Shown: one piece after another, positions 10,310 through 34,211 of the stretch
Numbering within the stretch: the first letter of the stretch is position 1
How the letters are laid out: each line of letters begins with the position of its first letter
NCBI RefSeq assembly: GCF_002804065.1
Contig: NZ_CP024955.1
Location: 3,100,001 to 3,164,000, forward strand
From: Kyrpidia spormannii
GTDB taxonomy: Bacteria > Bacillota > Bacilli > Kyrpidiales > Kyrpidiaceae
DNA length: 64,000 nucleotides
Direction: 5' to 3'
Notes under the pieces: generated by a model
What the model was told of the DNA's origin: nothing
The model's input: the letters and a program-made list of their open reading frames with translations, nothing else
Database searches by the model: none
Made by a program: the position numbers and the translations under genes

Positions 10310-11050
10310 TTAACCGTACATCACGCCTCCGCCATTGACGCCAACAACCTGCCCAGTCATAAAACTTGAATCATCAGATGCAAGGAACGCAACGACGTTC
10401 GCAATTTCTTCTGGTCGTCCCAAACGCTTAAGCGGGTATCTAGCGGACTCTTCAGCGACATATTCCGGTCCAAGGCGCTCAACCAGTGGTGTCAGGGTCC
10501 CTCCAGGCGCCACAGCGTTGACAAGGATACCGTAAGGAGCTAGTTCACGAGCCAAACTTTTTGTCAAGGCTATCACACCGCCTTTTGCAGCTGAATAATG
10601 AGCCAGTCGCTCACATCCCAATTGCCCCAAGTCTGATGCTATGTTGACAATGCGTCCCGCTCTCTGTTTCATCATCAACTTTACAGCTGCTCGGGCACAA
10701 TAAAACGCGCCATACAGATGAACTTTAACCATTTTATCCCACTCATCGTCCGACAGTTCAGTAAACACACTTTCTTTGAGGAACCCAGCATTGTTCACTA
10801 GAATGTCAAGGCGTTCAATACCCACAAACAGCTTGTTAACTTCTCCTGAACTGGACACGTCTCCGAGTTTCACTAGGCATTGGACGCCATGTCGCTCAAC
10901 CCGTTCTTTCACTTGATAAACTGATGCCTGAGACGGTAGATCATTGAGAATCACATTGGCACCCTTTTCTGCAAACGTCAGTGCCACAGACTTTCCGATC
11001 CCACTCCCGGCACCGGTAATCATGACCCATTTGTTCTGGAACGTCGCCAC
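10310..11050 (-). CDS. SDR-family oxidoreductase (FabG-like)
   Basis: Classical short-chain dehydrogenase of about 246 residues. The NAD(P)-binding motif is TGAGSGIG, followed by NNAG, and the catalytic Ser and YSAAKGG motif contain the Tyr-Lys pair. It ends with the FabG-like GQVVGVNGGGVMYG. GTG 11050 is preferred as start because AAAGGGG lies 7-10 bases upstream; an in-frame GTG occurs at 11059. The substrate is unknown; in this operon it may oxidise or reduce a hydroxy acid arising from the nitrogen compound. Confidence 0.82.
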   Translation of the reverse strand: MATFQNKWVMITGAGSGIGKSVALTFAEKGANVILNDLPSQASVYQVKERVERHGVQCLVKLGDVSSSGEVNKLFVGIERLDILVNNAGFLKESVFTELSDDEWDKMVKVHLYGAFYCARAAVKLMMKQRAGRIVNIASDLGQLGCERLAHYSAAKGGVIALTKSLARELAPYGILVNAVAPGGTLTPLVERLGPEYVAEESARYPLKRLGRPEEIANVVAFLASDDSSFMTGQVVGVNGGGVMYG

Positions 11051-11114
11051 AATAACCACCCCTTTCTATACCGACTATGCAAGAGATATAACGTTGTTGT
11101 TGAGCCTGAACGAA

Positions 11115-12035
11115 TCAAAAAGCATGCTCCTTTAGCCACGCTGCATAGGTCTCAATACCGGTTCGCAAATCATACTTTGGGCTATAGCCTAGTATGGACT
11201 TTGCCTTGGTGATATCGAATTCGCCGTTCTGATCCAGATAATCGATTGTACCCGGTCCAATGTCGATATCAGCTTCTGGAAACAGTCGCTTGACTTCCTG
11301 TACCACTTCCCCAAAGCTGACTTGGAAGCCGGCAGTAATATTGAACGCTTCAGATCCCACACTATCAATAGTGGCTGCAAGAATGGCTGCCTCGGCAACA
11401 TCTTCCACATGGACATAGTGGAACCGGTAATCACGGCCGCTTGGTTCATGTGTTGGAACCCCATCTATGGCATTGCGCAACAATGTCTTCAAATAGCATT
11501 GCATAAATTGCCCTGGTCCGTAGACCCATCCCGGTCGAAGCGACGGGATCTCCATACCATACAACTGTGAATACACGCGCCCAAGATGTTCTGTAAACAT
11601 CTTGGTGACACCATAGGGCGTAGTCGGCTCTAATGGAGCCATCTCGGATACCTTTCCAACCTCTCTGTTATGACCATAGACACACTCGGAACTGAAGTTT
11701 ACCACACGTTTGATGCCACAAATCCGTGCTGCTTCAAAAACAGATGCGGTTCCTAAGGCATTCGTGACGACTGTTTGATACGGAACTTCGCGCGATACAA
11801 CGGGGTGGCTGATAGCAGCCGTATGAATGACCGAAACAACGTTCTCCTCCCGACAAATCTCTATCAGACGGCCTACGTCGTTGATATCTGCTTGGTAATA
11901 TCGAAACAAAGGCGTAGATATATCCTGATCAATAAACCTTCTGTCGACACTGATCACTTTTTTACCGTAGTCTCGCAACATCCGAACAACTGTCTGTCCG
12001 ATAAAGCCAAACCCGCCTGTAACTAAAATCGCCAT
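11115..12035 (-). CDS. NAD-dependent epimerase/dehydratase (extended SDR)
   Basis: A 306-residue extended SDR with an N-terminal Rossmann motif GGFGFIG and the catalytic YGVTK at about residue 141. It resembles nucleotide-sugar epimerases and also uronate dehydrogenases, which share the short C-terminal domain. It is the first gene of the minus-strand operon; ATG 12035 follows AAAGGGGCGG. Its role with a ureohydrolase and permease is not obvious; no nucleotide-sugar genes are nearby. Confidence 0.8.
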   Translation of the reverse strand: MAILVTGGFGFIGQTVVRMLRDYGKKVISVDRRFIDQDISTPLFRYYQADINDVGRLIEICREENVVSVIHTAAISHPVVSREVPYQTVVTNALGTASVFEAARICGIKRVVNFSSECVYGHNREVGKVSEMAPLEPTTPYGVTKMFTEHLGRVYSQLYGMEIPSLRPGWVYGPGQFMQCYLKTLLRNAIDGVPTHEPSGRDYRFHYVHVEDVAEAAILAATIDSVGSEAFNITAGFQVSFGEVVQEVKRLFPEADIDIGPGTIDYLDQNGEFDITKAKSILGYSPKYDLRTGIETYAAWLKEHAF

Positions 12036-12089
12036 CTGACCGCCCCTTTCGGTGAGTCAATTACGAGGCTTGGCACTTAATTGCCCGTA

Positions 12090-12165
12090 TTTATGATACT
12101 TTATATCACAAACAAAATCAATCATTCTACACATAACGTCTTTATGTTACTTTATATGACACACA
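12090..12165 (-). promoter_or_regulatory. Promoter with paired operator-like direct repeats
   Basis: On the minus strand TTGATT (12121-12116) and TATCAT (12098-12093) are separated by 17 bases, a good sigma-A promoter 58 bases upstream of the epimerase ATG. A 25-base motif at 12090-12114 recurs at 12141-12165 with three mismatches, 51 bases apart (about five helical turns). Each copy contains an imperfect dyad of the form TGATA-5-TATCA. The proximal copy covers the -10 element and spacer, as expected for a repressor site; the distal one lies upstream of -35. No regulator gene is adjacent. Confidence 0.6.
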
Positions 12166-12191
12166 TATTCCTCGATAAGATCGTGGGGGCT

Positions 12192-13598
12192 TCACCCCTC
12201 CCTCGCCTCCTCCAGCGCCTCACCCAGCACCGTGGCGATCAACCTCACCTCCTCGTCGGTCACCACGAAGGGCGGCGCGATGGTGAGAACGTTGTTAAAC
12301 TGGGGAACCGTGTCGCTGTTCTTGCCGATGATCACGCCCCGGCGCTTGCAGCCGGCGATAACCTTGCCGACAAAGTCCGAGGGCGCCGGCTCTTTGGTCG
12401 CTTTATCGGCCACCAGCTCAATGCCCGCCATGAAACCGAAGAACCGCAGGTCGCCGACGTTCGGGTGCGCCGCCAAGGGTTCGAGCGCCTCCCGCAGCCT
12501 CTCGCCCAACTCCTCCGCCCGTTTGACATATCCCTGCTCATCCATCAGTTCCAACGTTCGTACAGCCAAGGCGCAGGCGGTGGCGTTGCCGCCGAAGGTG
12601 TTCACATGGCGGAAATGGGCATAGGGCTCATCCTCCTTAAACGCCTCGAAGAGCTCCTCCCGCACCGCCGTGGCCGAAAGGGGCAGATATGCGCTGGTGA
12701 TGCCTTTCGCCATGGTGACGATGTCCGGCTGCACCCCGTAGTTCTGGTGGCCGAACCGCCGCCCGGACCGGCCGAATCCACAGATCACCTCGTCGATAAT
12801 GAGCAAAACCCCGTACTTGTCACAAATCTCCCGCACCCGGCCGAGATACTCGGGCGGCGGCGCGATGACCCCACCCCCGGTGATGGTCGGTTCCATGATC
12901 ACCGCGGCCACTGTTTTCGGCTCCTCCCAGTTGATCACCTGCTCGATGGCGGACGCGCACTCAATTCCGCAGGACCCGTGGGTCTGCCCAAAGGGACACC
13001 GGTAACAATACGGCGGCGGAACGTGCACGAACCCCGGAGCCAAAGGCTCATAACGATATTTGCGCTGCGCCTGGCCCGTGGCCGCCAGGGCCCCCGCCGA
13101 ATTCCCATGGTACGCCCGGTATCGGGAGAGGATTTTCCACCGGGTGGGCTCCCCCCGCTGGGCGTGATACTGCCTGGCGATTTTAAAAGCCACCTCATTG
13201 GCTTCAGACCCGCTGTTCGAGTAAAATACCCGATAATCCCCGCCCAACCACTCGTTTAATTTTTCACTCAACCGAATGGCCGGCAAGTGACTCTGGGTCA
13301 ATGGAAAATACGGCATCTCTAGAAGCTGCTGATAGGCCGCTTCGGCCAACGCCTTCTGGGAATACCCGAGGTTGACGCACCACAGCCCGGACATGGCATC
13401 GAGATACCGATTCCCCTCCAGATCCTCCACCCATGCCCCGTCTCCTTTGACCACCACCATCGGATCCCGGCTGGCCACATAAGGCTGAATATGATGCCAC
13501 ACATACCGCCGATCTTTCTCGATCCACTCCCGGGTCTCCCTTCCTTCGGGAAGGTTCGGACGTCCCGACGTCTCCCTCAGGGTTTCTTGTTCCAACAT
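12192..13598 (-). CDS. Class-III omega-amino acid:pyruvate aminotransferase
   Basis: A PLP-dependent aminotransferase of 468 residues. The PLP-lysine sits in TMAKGITSAY; the phosphate-binding SGSEANEVAFK and the IIDEVICGFGRSG motif are present. A cysteine-containing stretch CYRCPFG is typical of the taurine/beta-alanine:pyruvate group. ATG 13598 is chosen because AAGGAG lies five bases upstream. With alanine dehydrogenase and a CoA-acylating semialdehyde dehydrogenase directly upstream, beta-alanine (giving malonate semialdehyde plus alanine) is the most economical substrate. Taurine is an alternative, but no sulfoacetaldehyde acetyltransferase is present. Confidence 0.85.
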   Translation of the reverse strand: MLEQETLRETSGRPNLPEGRETREWIEKDRRYVWHHIQPYVASRDPMVVVKGDGAWVEDLEGNRYLDAMSGLWCVNLGYSQKALAEAAYQQLLEMPYFPLTQSHLPAIRLSEKLNEWLGGDYRVFYSNSGSEANEVAFKIARQYHAQRGEPTRWKILSRYRAYHGNSAGALAATGQAQRKYRYEPLAPGFVHVPPPYCYRCPFGQTHGSCGIECASAIEQVINWEEPKTVAAVIMEPTITGGGVIAPPPEYLGRVREICDKYGVLLIIDEVICGFGRSGRRFGHQNYGVQPDIVTMAKGITSAYLPLSATAVREELFEAFKEDEPYAHFRHVNTFGGNATACALAVRTLELMDEQGYVKRAEELGERLREALEPLAAHPNVGDLRFFGFMAGIELVADKATKEPAPSDFVGKVIAGCKRRGVIIGKNSDTVPQFNNVLTIAPPFVVTDEEVRLIATVLGEALEEAREG

Positions 13599-13635
13599 TC
13601 CCACTCCTTCTTCCCGGCGTCATCCGTCCCGGGTG

Positions 13636-13729
13636 TTATGCACAGCTCATCCACATATCCACATTTCGGCTGTGGACAACTGCCCTCATCTTGTGGACAA
13701 CCCGCACCCTTATCCACATATTCTCCACA
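13636..13729. promoter_or_regulatory. Cluster of seven DnaA-box-like sites
   Basis: Within 94 bases are seven 9-mers equal to, or one base from, the DnaA box TTATNCACA: TTATGCACA 13636, TCATCCACA 13647, ATATCCACA 13655, TTGTCCACA on minus at 13671-13679 and again at 13692-13700, TTATCCACA 13710 and TTCTCCACA 13721. This density is far above chance. It lies between ald and the aminotransferase gene, with no dnaA, dnaN or AT-rich unwinding region nearby. It is therefore better explained as a non-oriC DnaA-binding cluster than an origin. Confidence 0.7.
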
Positions 13730-13765
13730 GTAGGCGCCGTCACCGCCCGCTGGACGGACGGCACA

Positions 13766-14890
13766 CTACACCGCCACAGCGCCTTCCAGCACCCTTCGGG
13801 GGTCCGTCCAGGGAAATCCAAAAGCTTCCGCCACGCCCCGACAGGTCACCCGTCCCCGGGCCACGTTCACTCCGCAAAGGAGCGGCCGATCGCCTAGGGC
13901 CGCCTTCACCCCGCCTCTGGCCAGCTTTAACACATAAGGCAACGTCGCCCCCGTCAGGGCAAAGGTCGACGTCCGGGGCACCGCCCCGGGCATGTTGGCC
14001 ACCGCATAGTGCACCACCCCGTGCACCGAATACACCGGATCATCATGGGTGGTCACCCGGTCCGCCGTCTCCACACAACCTCCCTGGTCCACCGCCACGT
14101 CGACGATCACCGCCCCCGGGCGCATCTGGGCCACCATCTCCCGGGTGACCAATTTTGGCGCCCGGGCTCCGGGGATAAGAACCGCCCCGATCACCAGATC
14201 CGCCGTCCTGACCGCCTCGGCCAGGGCATAGGCGCTGGACATCACCGTCTTCACCCGGCCCCCGAACAGATCATCCAGAGCCCGAAGCCGACCGCCGTCA
14301 ATGTCAAAAATCGTCACATCCGCCCCCAGCCCCGCCGCCATCTTCGCCGCCTGGGTGCCTACAGTTCCCCCTCCCACAACCACCACCCGGGCCGGCAACA
14401 CTCCCGGCACGCCGCCGAGCAGCACCCCGGCACCGCCGTTTGGCTTCTCCAAAAACCTCGCCCCGACCTGGACCGCCATCCGTCCAGCCACCTCGCTCAT
14501 GGGAGCGAGCAGGGGCAATCCGCCGCCATCCACCTGGATCGTTTCGTAGGCCACCGCCGTCATGCCCGCATCCCGCAGCGCTTCGGTCAGCTCCCGGTCG
14601 GCGGCCAGGTGCAGATAGGTAAACAGAATCAGATTTTCTCGAAAATACCGGTATTCTTCGGGCCGCGGCTCTTTGACCTTGACCACCAGATCGGCGGCCC
14701 ACGCTTCTTCCGCCGTGCCCAGGCGGCCACCGGCCCGCACGTATTCCGCATCGTCAATGCCGCTGCCGACCCCGGCCCCGGATTCCACCACCACCTCGTG
14801 CCCGGCGTCCACCAGATCCCGTACCCCCGCCGGCGTCAGCCCCACCCGAAACTCCCGTTCCTTGATCTCCTTCGGCACCCCTACCCGCAT
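13766..14890 (-). CDS. ald: Alanine dehydrogenase
   Basis: NAD-dependent interconversion of L-alanine with pyruvate plus ammonium; 374 residues, the family length. Visible are the N-terminal MRVGVPKEIKEREFRV, the substrate-binding KVKEP, the Rossmann region VVVVGGGTVG near residue 170 and YSVHGVVHYAVANMPGAVP, a hallmark of Ald. ATG 14890 overlaps the stop of the upstream gene by one base. In this operon it would recycle the alanine made by the aminotransferase back to pyruvate and release the nitrogen as ammonium. Confidence 0.92.
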   Translation of the reverse strand: MRVGVPKEIKEREFRVGLTPAGVRDLVDAGHEVVVESGAGVGSGIDDAEYVRAGGRLGTAEEAWAADLVVKVKEPRPEEYRYFRENLILFTYLHLAADRELTEALRDAGMTAVAYETIQVDGGGLPLLAPMSEVAGRMAVQVGARFLEKPNGGAGVLLGGVPGVLPARVVVVGGGTVGTQAAKMAAGLGADVTIFDIDGGRLRALDDLFGGRVKTVMSSAYALAEAVRTADLVIGAVLIPGARAPKLVTREMVAQMRPGAVIVDVAVDQGGCVETADRVTTHDDPVYSVHGVVHYAVANMPGAVPRTSTFALTGATLPYVLKLARGGVKAALGDRPLLCGVNVARGRVTCRGVAEAFGFPWTDPRRVLEGAVAV

Positions 14891-16365
14891 CACCGACCGC
14901 CTCCGAACCAGCGGGAAGTCACCATTTTCTTCCTTGTGTAAAATTCCACCCCATCCCGCCCCGTGGCGTGCAGATCGCCATAAAACGAATTTTTCCAGCC
15001 GCTGAAAGGGAAGAAGGCCATCGGCACGGGCACCCCGACGTTGACGCCGAGCATCCCCGCTTGCACCGTCTCCCGGAACATCCGGGCCGCCGCGCCGCTC
15101 TCGGTGTAGATCACCGCCGAGTTCCCGAACCGGGACCGATTCACCACCCCGATCGCCTCTTCCAAGCTGTCCGCGCGAATGACGCTCAGCACCGGGGCGA
15201 ACAATTCTTCCCGAGCCACCGTCATCTCCGGATTCACCCGGTCCAGAATCGTCGGCCCAAGGAAGAACCCCTGGGGCAGCCGCTCCATGGCGTCCCGGCC
15301 GTCCCGGGCCATGACCGCCCCTTCCGCCAGCCCCTGATGAATTCGCTCCACCACCCGGGCCCGGTGTTCGACGCGAATCAAGGGCCCCAGCTCCACCCCC
15401 TCCTCCAGGCCGTTGCCGATCCGCATCCTGTCCCCGGCTTCCACCAAGGCCTCCACCAAGGGATCACCCACCGATCCCACCGCCACCACCACACTACAGG
15501 CCATACAGCGCTGACCCGCCGACCCGAAACCAGAGTTCCGGATGGCGTGCACCGCCCCTTCGAGATTCGCGTCCGGCATCACGATGTGGTGATTTTTCGC
15601 CCCGGCCAAAGCCTGTACCCGTTTCCCCGCGGCCGCAGCCGTCCGGTACACGTGCTCGGCTACAGGCTGGGAGCCAACAAAAGAAACGGCATCCACCCCG
15701 GGGTGCGTCAGGAGGGCGTCCACCACCTCTTTGCCCCCGTGAACCAGATTGAGCACCCCTTCGGGAATCCCGGCTTCCATGGCCAACTCCACCAATCGCA
15801 TGGAAGTCAAGGGGGTCCGCTCCGAAGGTTTCAACACGAAGGCATTCCCCGCCGCCAGGGCGATGGGCATCATCCACATGGGCACCATCATGGGAAAATT
15901 AAAGGGCACGATGCCCGCCACGACACCCACGGGGTAGCGGACCATCTCCATGTCGATCCCCCGGGACACCTGGGGACTTACGTACCCTTGCATGAGGGTG
16001 GGCATCCCGGCCGCGAATTCCACCACTTCAATGCCGCGCCACACCTCGCCCCGGGCGTCGCCCAGGGTCTTGCCGTTTTCGGTGGTCACCAGGCGGGCCA
16101 GCTCCTCCAGCCGCTGGACCAAAAGCTCCCGCCACCGGAACATCACCCGGGCCCGCTCCACCACAGGTACTTCCCGCCAGGATTCAAACGCCTCCCGGGC
16201 GGCCCGAACCGCCCTGTCCACATCCGCAGCTGTGGACAGGGGCACCTCTGCCAAAAGCTCCCCGGTGGCCGGATTGGGCACCGGCAAGACTTGATCAGTT
16301 TGAGATGCCTGCCACATCCCGCCAATAAAATTTTTGAGCCGCATCTCCTGAACCGTCGTTCCCAC
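14890..16365 (-). CDS. mmsA: CoA-acylating (methyl)malonate-semialdehyde dehydrogenase
   Basis: Aldehyde dehydrogenase superfamily, about 491 residues. The nucleophilic Cys is in GSAGQRCMACSVVVAVG; the PFNFPMMVPMWMMP stretch is diagnostic of the MmsA/IolA group, which lacks the usual general-base Glu and forms acetyl- or propionyl-CoA with loss of CO2. GTG 16365 is preferred (GAGG eight bases upstream); another GTG exists at 16374. It is first in a three-gene operon with ald and the aminotransferase, together a plausible beta-alanine to acetyl-CoA pathway. Confidence 0.88.
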   Translation of the reverse strand: MGTTVQEMRLKNFIGGMWQASQTDQVLPVPNPATGELLAEVPLSTAADVDRAVRAAREAFESWREVPVVERARVMFRWRELLVQRLEELARLVTTENGKTLGDARGEVWRGIEVVEFAAGMPTLMQGYVSPQVSRGIDMEMVRYPVGVVAGIVPFNFPMMVPMWMMPIALAAGNAFVLKPSERTPLTSMRLVELAMEAGIPEGVLNLVHGGKEVVDALLTHPGVDAVSFVGSQPVAEHVYRTAAAAGKRVQALAGAKNHHIVMPDANLEGAVHAIRNSGFGSAGQRCMACSVVVAVGSVGDPLVEALVEAGDRMRIGNGLEEGVELGPLIRVEHRARVVERIHQGLAEGAVMARDGRDAMERLPQGFFLGPTILDRVNPEMTVAREELFAPVLSVIRADSLEEAIGVVNRSRFGNSAVIYTESGAAARMFRETVQAGMLGVNVGVPVPMAFFPFSGWKNSFYGDLHATGRDGVEFYTRKKMVTSRWFGGGR

Positions 16366-16576
16366 GCCTCTCACCTCTTTGCCGATCCTCTGGAATCAGC
16401 GTATCAGAATGGCGCGATCTTTTCGTCAGACAAAGTGTATGAGAATTGAGCCTCTTCATTGGACACTTCGGTGACTTCCAAGCGCTGGCCCCGCGCTACG
16501 AGACGGTATTTGACCATTGACATGAGAATGGAAGAAGCGTTTCCTTATTTCTAGAACGGAAGGAGGAAACCCGGCG

Positions 16577-17155
16577 TTGGAAGGGGAAGAACCCGTTAGT
16601 TTGCAACGGATGGCGACTTTGATCTGGGAGTTGCAGCGGACCATCCAGGACGCAAAAAGGGACATTCATCATCGATTTGATCATTTAGAGGAACGACTGG
16701 ATCACATCCAGATGCAACTGCACACTTTGCAACAGGAACAGGAGCGTTATAACGGGCGGCAGCGATCGGTGGAACAGACCGTGGAAACCTCCCGCAGACT
16801 CGGGGAACAGACCCTCGGCCGTTTTGGAGATTTAGAAAAAGAAATGGATCGGGTGATCCGGCGGGCGGGGGCGGAAGCGGATCGCCGCCTCGACCGCATC
16901 GAGGCCACCCAGCGGGAAATTCTCCGGGAACTGGAACAAACCTACGGTGATCTTCGCACATTCAGACGGGAGTGGCGGGCGAATTCCGGAGGAAGACATC
17001 CCGGTCGCCAAGAAAAAGGTGTTCCCCTCGCCGATGGCCAACCCGGCCTGGCAGGCGGCGCAAACCACCCACTGCCCCCGGAACAACCGCTGGGCCGCGG
17101 TACACAGACGATGTCCCCGGAAGGGCGGGTGGACAACCGGAAGGAAGACCGCTAA
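16577..17155 (+). CDS. Coiled-coil protein of unknown function
   Basis: A 192-residue soluble protein whose first 135 residues are heptad-rich helix (many Leu, Glu, Arg; RFDHLEERLDHIQMQL and similar) with almost no Gly or Pro, predicting a long coiled coil. The C-terminal 55 residues are Pro/Gly-rich and probably disordered. TTG 16577 follows AAGGAGG by about ten bases. No family recognised. It is divergent from the aminotransferase operon, 211 bases away. Confidence 0.6.
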   Translation: MEGEEPVSLQRMATLIWELQRTIQDAKRDIHHRFDHLEERLDHIQMQLHTLQQEQERYNGRQRSVEQTVETSRRLGEQTLGRFGDLEKEMDRVIRRAGAEADRRLDRIEATQREILRELEQTYGDLRTFRREWRANSGGRHPGRQEKGVPLADGQPGLAGGANHPLPPEQPLGRGTQTMSPEGRVDNRKEDR

Positions 17156-32639: not shown

Positions 32640-34211
32640 ATGGTGCGACGCAACGGAGAGGGACGCGGAAAGAATCGCAAAAACAAACAAGTTTCCTGGT
32701 CGGATCCCCAGGGCAGCGGGGAGGGGGCCGCGGGCTTATCCCCAGAGATCGACCAGCTTTATCAACAGATTCAAGAGATGTGGACAAAGTGCGATGACGT
32801 CCAATTCCGCTGGGTGCAGACAGCCGGGCGGCGGGGATTCATCGTCTGGATCTATACGTTGATCGGCAAAGAACTGGCCCAAGAAAGTATTCTTGAACCC
32901 TTGACCACCCTGGAAAAGGCGGAAACTGTAACAGATGTCCAACAGGCTTTGCGCAGCCCTTCTCTTCGGCTTGTAAGCAGTGTGGAAGAAATCAATATCG
33001 CCGTGGGGGAGGGGGCGGCGGTTCTGTGCCTGGACGGATTCACCCAGGCGATCGTCCTGGATGTCATGCAGTTCCAGGGGCGCTCAGTGGAACGTTCGAC
33101 GTTGGAGGCGGTAGTCCGGGGCCCCCAGGAGGCTTTCACCGAAAGTCTGGAAATGAACCTCGGACTCATCCGCCGCAGGCTCAAAAGCCCCCGGGTCAAA
33201 GTGGAATATATGGCCCTGGGCCGGGTGTCGAAAACTATGGTCGCCCTGGTCTACATCCAGGGCATCGTGAAACCAGGTCATGTCAAAGAGTGCCAGGAGC
33301 GCCTGAATCGGATCGACGTAGATTCCATCCTCGACTCCGGATACGTCGAGGAGCTGATCGACGATGCGCCCCTGTCCCCTTTCCCCACCATCGAATACAC
33401 CGAGCGCCCGGACCGCCTCGCCGCCGAGGCTTTGCAGGGGCGGGTGGGGATCGTCGTGGACGGCAGCCCCAACGCCTTGCTCATCCCGGCTCTGTTCGTC
33501 AACTTCCTGCAGTCCCCGGAAGATTATTTTGAACGGTACAGTATGGCCCTGGCCGTTCGCCTGTTGCGGCACATGTATTTCTGGATCGCCTTGCTTTTGC
33601 CCGCCACTTATGTGGCACTGTTGTCGTATCACCAAGAGATGATCCCGACCACCCTGTTGATGACCCTGACCGCCTCCCACGAAGGCGTGCCCTTTCCCGC
33701 CGTCGTCGAGGCGTTGATCATGGAAGTGACTTTCGAAGCCCTGCGGGAAGCCGGTATCCGCCTGCCCAAGGCCGTCGGCCAGTCGGTGAGCATCGTCGGC
33801 GCCCTGGTGATCGGCGAAGCGGCCGTCAACGCCGGCATCGTATCGCCTGCCATGGTCATCATCGTAGCGTTGACGGGAATCGCGTCCTTTACGGTCCCCA
33901 GTTACAACATCGCCATCACGTTCCGGCTCCTGCGTTTTCCCATGATGATCATGGCCGGGCTGTTCGGACTGTACGGCATCATCATTTCTCTGCTCATCCT
34001 GTGGATCCACTTGGTTTCCCTGCGGTCCTTTGGCGTGCCTTACATGACTCCCATCGCCCCCCTGGTGTGGGAGGATCTCAAGGACACCTTTAGCCGACCG
34101 CCTTGGTGGTACATGAAAAAGCGCCCAAAGATGTACGAAACGGTGGACCCCACCCGCAGCGCGGACATCCCTCGTCCTCTGCCGGGGACAGCCGAGGAGG
34201 ACCCGCTGTGA
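32640..34211 (+). CDS. gerAA: GerA-type spore germinant receptor subunit A
   Basis: Inner-spore-membrane germinant receptor subunit A, about 523 residues: a hydrophilic N-terminal domain (to ~residue 300) and four to five membrane helices. GerA-family markers are RVGIVVDGSPNALLIPALF, SYHQEMIPTTLL, PFPAVVEALIMEVTFE, REAGIRLPKAVGQ and VGALVIGEAAV. ATG 32640 with GAGG upstream is preferred over TTG 32583, which has no binding site. Followed by gerAC with a GTGA overlap. Confidence 0.93.
   Translation: MVRRNGEGRGKNRKNKQVSWSDPQGSGEGAAGLSPEIDQLYQQIQEMWTKCDDVQFRWVQTAGRRGFIVWIYTLIGKELAQESILEPLTTLEKAETVTDVQQALRSPSLRLVSSVEEINIAVGEGAAVLCLDGFTQAIVLDVMQFQGRSVERSTLEAVVRGPQEAFTESLEMNLGLIRRRLKSPRVKVEYMALGRVSKTMVALVYIQGIVKPGHVKECQERLNRIDVDSILDSGYVEELIDDAPLSPFPTIEYTERPDRLAAEALQGRVGIVVDGSPNALLIPALFVNFLQSPEDYFERYSMALAVRLLRHMYFWIALLLPATYVALLSYHQEMIPTTLLMTLTASHEGVPFPAVVEALIMEVTFEALREAGIRLPKAVGQSVSIVGALVIGEAAVNAGIVSPAMVIIVALTGIASFTVPSYNIAITFRLLRFPMMIMAGLFGLYGIIISLLILWIHLVSLRSFGVPYMTPIAPLVWEDLKDTFSRPPWWYMKKRPKMYETVDPTRSADIPRPLPGTAEEDPL

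Follow-up and report, generated by a model that had tools for sequence, protein, structure and literature searches.

A conserved DnaA-box cluster beside ald in Kyrpidia, a probable DnaA reservoir near oriC

Introduction

Why should seven DnaA boxes be packed into a short gap between two metabolic genes? The question arises from the window analysed here, a stretch of 64,000 bases corresponding to positions 3,100,001-3,164,000 of the 3,352,175-base circular chromosome of Kyrpidia sp. EA-1. A sequence-only reading of the window had offered two answers, a site equivalent to the DnaA-box clusters of Bacillus subtilis or regulation of the operon by DnaA.

Six such extra-origin clusters are listed for B. 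subtilis, at ywcI/vpr, gcp/ydiF, jag/trmE, ywlC, yqeG/sda and yydA, in the accounts we drew on of the work of Okumura et al. 2012 (PMC5295017, PMC13220808, PMC4447404). In vitro each region contains 4-11 sites, and the affinity for DnaA is about that of oriC (PMC4447404). Deletion of all six leads to early initiation, which is partially corrected when one is restored (PMC5295017, PMC13220808). DnaA is also a repressor of ywlC, vpr, trmE-noc and further genes next to the clusters, and an activator of sda (PMC4447404). The control of initiation by extra-origin clusters in Firmicutes is debated because each of the B. subtilis clusters is individually weak, and two reviews disagree on the weight that they should be given as regulators. 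In E. coli, datA works with IHF, while B. subtilis does without IHF and without datA or DARS loci (PMC13220808).

Results and Discussion

Seven DnaA boxes lie between ald and an aminotransferase gene

All seven sites reported by the sequence-only reading were found exactly at 13636-13729 of the window. Sites were taken as boxes if they were within one mismatch of TTATNCACA; two are perfect and five have one mismatch, and they are ordered + + + - - + +. Box 1 (13636-13644, + strand, TTATGCACA) is perfect. Box 2 (13647-13655, +, TCATCCACA) and box 3 (13655-13663, +, ATATCCACA) have one base in common, and the two boxes on the opposite strand, box 4 (13671-13679, -) and box 5 (13692-13700, -), are both TTGTCCACA. 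The second perfect site is box 6 (13710-13718, +, TTATCCACA), and the cluster is completed by box 7 (13721-13729, +, TTCTCCACA).

The flanking genes are all on the - strand. Transcriptionally upstream is ald, encoding alanine dehydrogenase (13766-14893; TIGR00518, 561 bits against a cut-off of 392), which is preceded by a methylmalonate-semialdehyde dehydrogenase-like (MMSDH-like) gene (14890-16374; TIGR01722, 627 bits against 449), the first of the three-gene set. Downstream is a class III aminotransferase of the PRK07678 subfamily (12192-13604; NF005812, 771 bits against 488). The boxes occupy 94 of the 161 bases between ald and the aminotransferase gene, downstream of ald and with 31 bases between them and the start codon of the aminotransferase gene. 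No terminator was found in the gap that would separate the two genes, and a simple consensus scan of the gap found no promoter-like site on the - strand. Rfam gave no match to a structured RNA across window positions 11000-17000.

The density of the cluster is far above background. Sites with at most one mismatch number 1,347 genome-wide, compared with 1,023 for a reversed control pattern, and in the 804 kb of the genome that was scanned they occur at 0.045 per 100 bases. From this background a Poisson estimate for seven sites in 94 bases is approximately 5e-14 per place, and when 3.35 Mb of sequence were simulated with a first-order Markov model, no stretch of 94 bases had more than three sites. 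The cluster sequence is present as a single copy in the genome. A 24-base match to it in one other genome (G053) was rejected as chance, being located within unrelated sequence with no box cluster.

The chromosome record of EA-1 starts at dnaA (PMC5773743), with the gene at position 337, and the position of the window on the circle puts the cluster 238.5 kb from oriC, or 7% of the chromosome. In a second complete Kyrpidia genome (G001) the distance is about 230 kb.

The boxes are conserved as a unit within Kyrpidia

The boxes were compared among three Kyrpidia genomes, one of which, G001, has the cluster at 95% identity across the 241-base query and is therefore hardly informative. The third, the diverged MAG Kyrpidia sp. 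Bu79, has all seven boxes with the order, strand and spacing kept and with no indel over the 94 bases. Box 1 is identical in all three genomes, while in Bu79 boxes 2 and 7 are both CCATCCACA, box 4 is TTTTCCACA, box 5 has become a perfect TTATCCACA and box 6 is TTTTGCACA; five of the seven are within one mismatch of the consensus and the other two have two mismatches. Between Bu79 and EA-1, 54 of 62 box positions are identical as against only 11 of 32 spacer positions (Fisher p 6e-7), and the boxes also exceed the four-fold sites of ald, which are identical at 135 of 224 (60%; Fisher p 6e-5). Since the alignment to Bu79 was located through the boxes these figures favour box identity, though the orthologous location, the order and the spacing are independent of this. 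Within the box, columns T4, C6, A7, C8 and A9 are unchanged in all seven while the first three positions vary.

The surroundings have changed much more. In Bu79 the intergenic region is about 600 bases and cannot be aligned outside the cluster, and the cluster lies at very different distances from the aminotransferase start and the ald stop, while its internal spacing has not changed. As the gap lengths to both genes differ so strongly between the species, the conserved unit is the cluster itself. The boxes and their spacing are thus under purifying selection as one unit, within Kyrpidia only. Conservation in relatives had been proposed as a check on the cluster, and within the genus the boxes have been kept, box by box.

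Function of the cluster

That the boxes have been kept while the DNA around them changed makes it most likely that the cluster is a reservoir site which soaks up DnaA and helps to time replication. We consider it probable that it is an extra-origin cluster of the B. subtilis type, sequestering DnaA near oriC; the occupancy by DnaA, the sequestration and the effect on the timing of initiation in Kyrpidia are what we infer from its sequence. DnaA would bind all seven boxes, probably cooperatively. Being proximal to oriC, the cluster would be copied early in each round, raising the number of high-affinity sites just after initiation, and this larger number of sites would leave less free DnaA for a second round at oriC.

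The likeness to the B. subtilis clusters is close. In both, the boxes are packed into a non-coding gap outside oriC and have no unwinding element; the number of boxes is similar, and the B. subtilis clusters are also mostly proximal to oriC. The differences are that the gap between ald and the aminotransferase gene is none of the six listed B. subtilis positions, that the host is GC-rich and thermophilic and that the Kyrpidia cluster is known from its sequence. The type of element would be an established one, and only its location new. The equivalence suggested by the sequence-only reading is thus borne out in box count, proximity to oriC, the missing unwinding element and conservation in the genus, while titration itself would follow by analogy. 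The E. coli loci datA, DARS1 and DARS2 are likewise non-coding groups of DnaA boxes away from oriC and influence initiation, an effect that is presumed for Kyrpidia.

An alternative is that DnaA at the cluster regulates transcription of the aminotransferase gene or attenuates read-through from ald, so tying a metabolic step to the state of replication. The cluster fills the gap directly upstream of the aminotransferase start, and DnaA in B. subtilis does control genes beside its clusters (PMC4447404). However, in Bu37, a MAG of the sister genus, the MMSDH-like gene, ald and the aminotransferase gene are intact, with protein identities of 85-88%, and the short gap between the latter two has no box cluster, only a single imperfect site. 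Among 78 further aminotransferase loci, most of them from Bacilli, none reaches four boxes within 120 bases. The changed distances to the genes in Bu79 also argue against regulation, and the simple promoter scan, with no hit on the - strand, may point the same way; we regard regulation as unlikely. Regulation of the operon, as the sequence-only reading had raised it, is weakened by the boxless operon of Bu37 and by the box-to-gene distance not being kept within Kyrpidia. Absence of the boxes where the flanking genes are kept had been named beforehand as evidence against a role for the cluster; it is seen in the sister genus, whereas Kyrpidia has kept the boxes, a pattern that fits a site that arose in Kyrpidia or was retained only there. 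Together with the movement of the cluster relative to both genes, the boxless operon makes the boxes a feature of the genus and a unit independent of gene distance, which is more in keeping with a reservoir for DnaA binding than with part of a promoter.

Since five of the seven sites have one mismatch to the DnaA consensus, the cluster could instead be bound by another regulator recognising TCCACA-like repeats. This seems very unlikely, as the variants TTATCCACA, TTGTCCACA and TCATCCACA also occur in the oriC of EA-1 and the DnaA-box positions conserved between species are T4 and C6-A9.

The box density equals that of oriC, as might be expected if the cluster were left over from a second origin or an integrated one, but we reject a second or plasmid-derived origin as highly improbable. 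The true oriC of EA-1 is bipartite, with box groups on both sides of dnaA at 3,351,943-3,352,041 and 1,356-1,449, and its boxes are followed by an AT-rich stretch. The cluster beside ald has neither feature: within about 300 bases the maximum AT content over 30 bases is 60%, compared with 77% beside the oriC boxes, and the neighbouring genes are metabolic as judged by profile matches. The sequence-only reading was therefore right that origin genes and an AT-rich unwinding element do not accompany the boxes. Similar DNA was also not found in plasmid and phage records. Chance accumulation or a dispersed repeat, the least credible explanation, is refuted by the simulation, the single copy and the box-by-box conservation.

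Other box groups on the chromosome

The genome was searched with three paired-core patterns, the candidate places were read, and 804 kb, chiefly around oriC, were scanned in full. This search identified two strong clusters outside oriC, of which the one beside ald is the densest, though because the pattern searches detect only boxes with a TCCACA core, clusters built from different variants may be missed in the rest of the genome. The second cluster has six boxes at 2,881,554-2,881,679 of the EA-1 chromosome (2555-2680 of the fetched locus L015), 470 kb from oriC, and adjoins fliD, fliS and a FlgN-like gene, names assigned from reading the translations. This flagellar-side cluster occurs in EA-1, Bu79 and Bu37 (4891-4966 of L105 and 8212-8331 of L104 in the relatives), while G001 has only two boxes with at most one mismatch there. 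Pairs of TCCACA at 402,500-405,500, 432,900-433,600, 611,100-611,800, 641,000-642,700 and 2,544,800-2,545,500 did not belong to any group of three boxes. A weaker group of four imperfect DnaA-like sites is present in 55 bases at 3,041,293-3,041,347 (15293-15347 of L123), and in the window three imperfect sites (TTATCCCCA, TTATCAACA and TTGTCCACA) lie in 52 bases at 32736-32787.

Cluster addresses differ between lineages

In a genome from another family of the class (G004), a cluster of five boxes directly follows tsaD (gcp), where B. subtilis has its gcp/ydiF cluster; in G004 it is approximately 306 kb from dnaA if the contig is circular. In a survey of 36 tsaD loci (L151-L186), the 600 bases following the gene were examined for five or more boxes within 200 bases. 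Such a cluster was identified in 21 loci, representing 18 of the 25 families of the class that were sampled outside that of Kyrpidia. Upstream of tsaD no such cluster was seen in the 36 loci. The downstream cluster is absent from all four genomes of the Kyrpidia family, from both Kyrpidia and the sister genus. In EA-1 its expected place is 203.6 kb to the right of oriC, while the cluster beside ald is at 238.5 kb on the other arm. The family has the flagellar-side cluster in place of the one at tsaD, and Kyrpidia additionally has the one at ald.

This one lineage suggests that the addresses of the clusters turn over while the function is retained. It is possible, and we put it forward tentatively, that Bacilli keep a roughly constant DnaA-binding capacity close to oriC at changing addresses, and that Kyrpidia, which lacks the tsaD site, acquired the one at ald. 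If this were true it would provide evolutionary evidence that the clusters act by their number and distance from oriC rather than through the neighbouring genes, and Kyrpidia offers a natural test of these two possibilities. The retention of the ald cluster box by box amid changed DNA, in a lineage with no tsaD cluster, indicates that selection cares about such sites.

The genome encodes DnaA together with YabA, a DnaA regulator of the B. subtilis type. A 257-aa ATPase with a weak match to Bac_DnaA is found at nine places on the EA-1 chromosome with identical scores, and is probably the IstB-type helper of a multi-copy IS21-like element.
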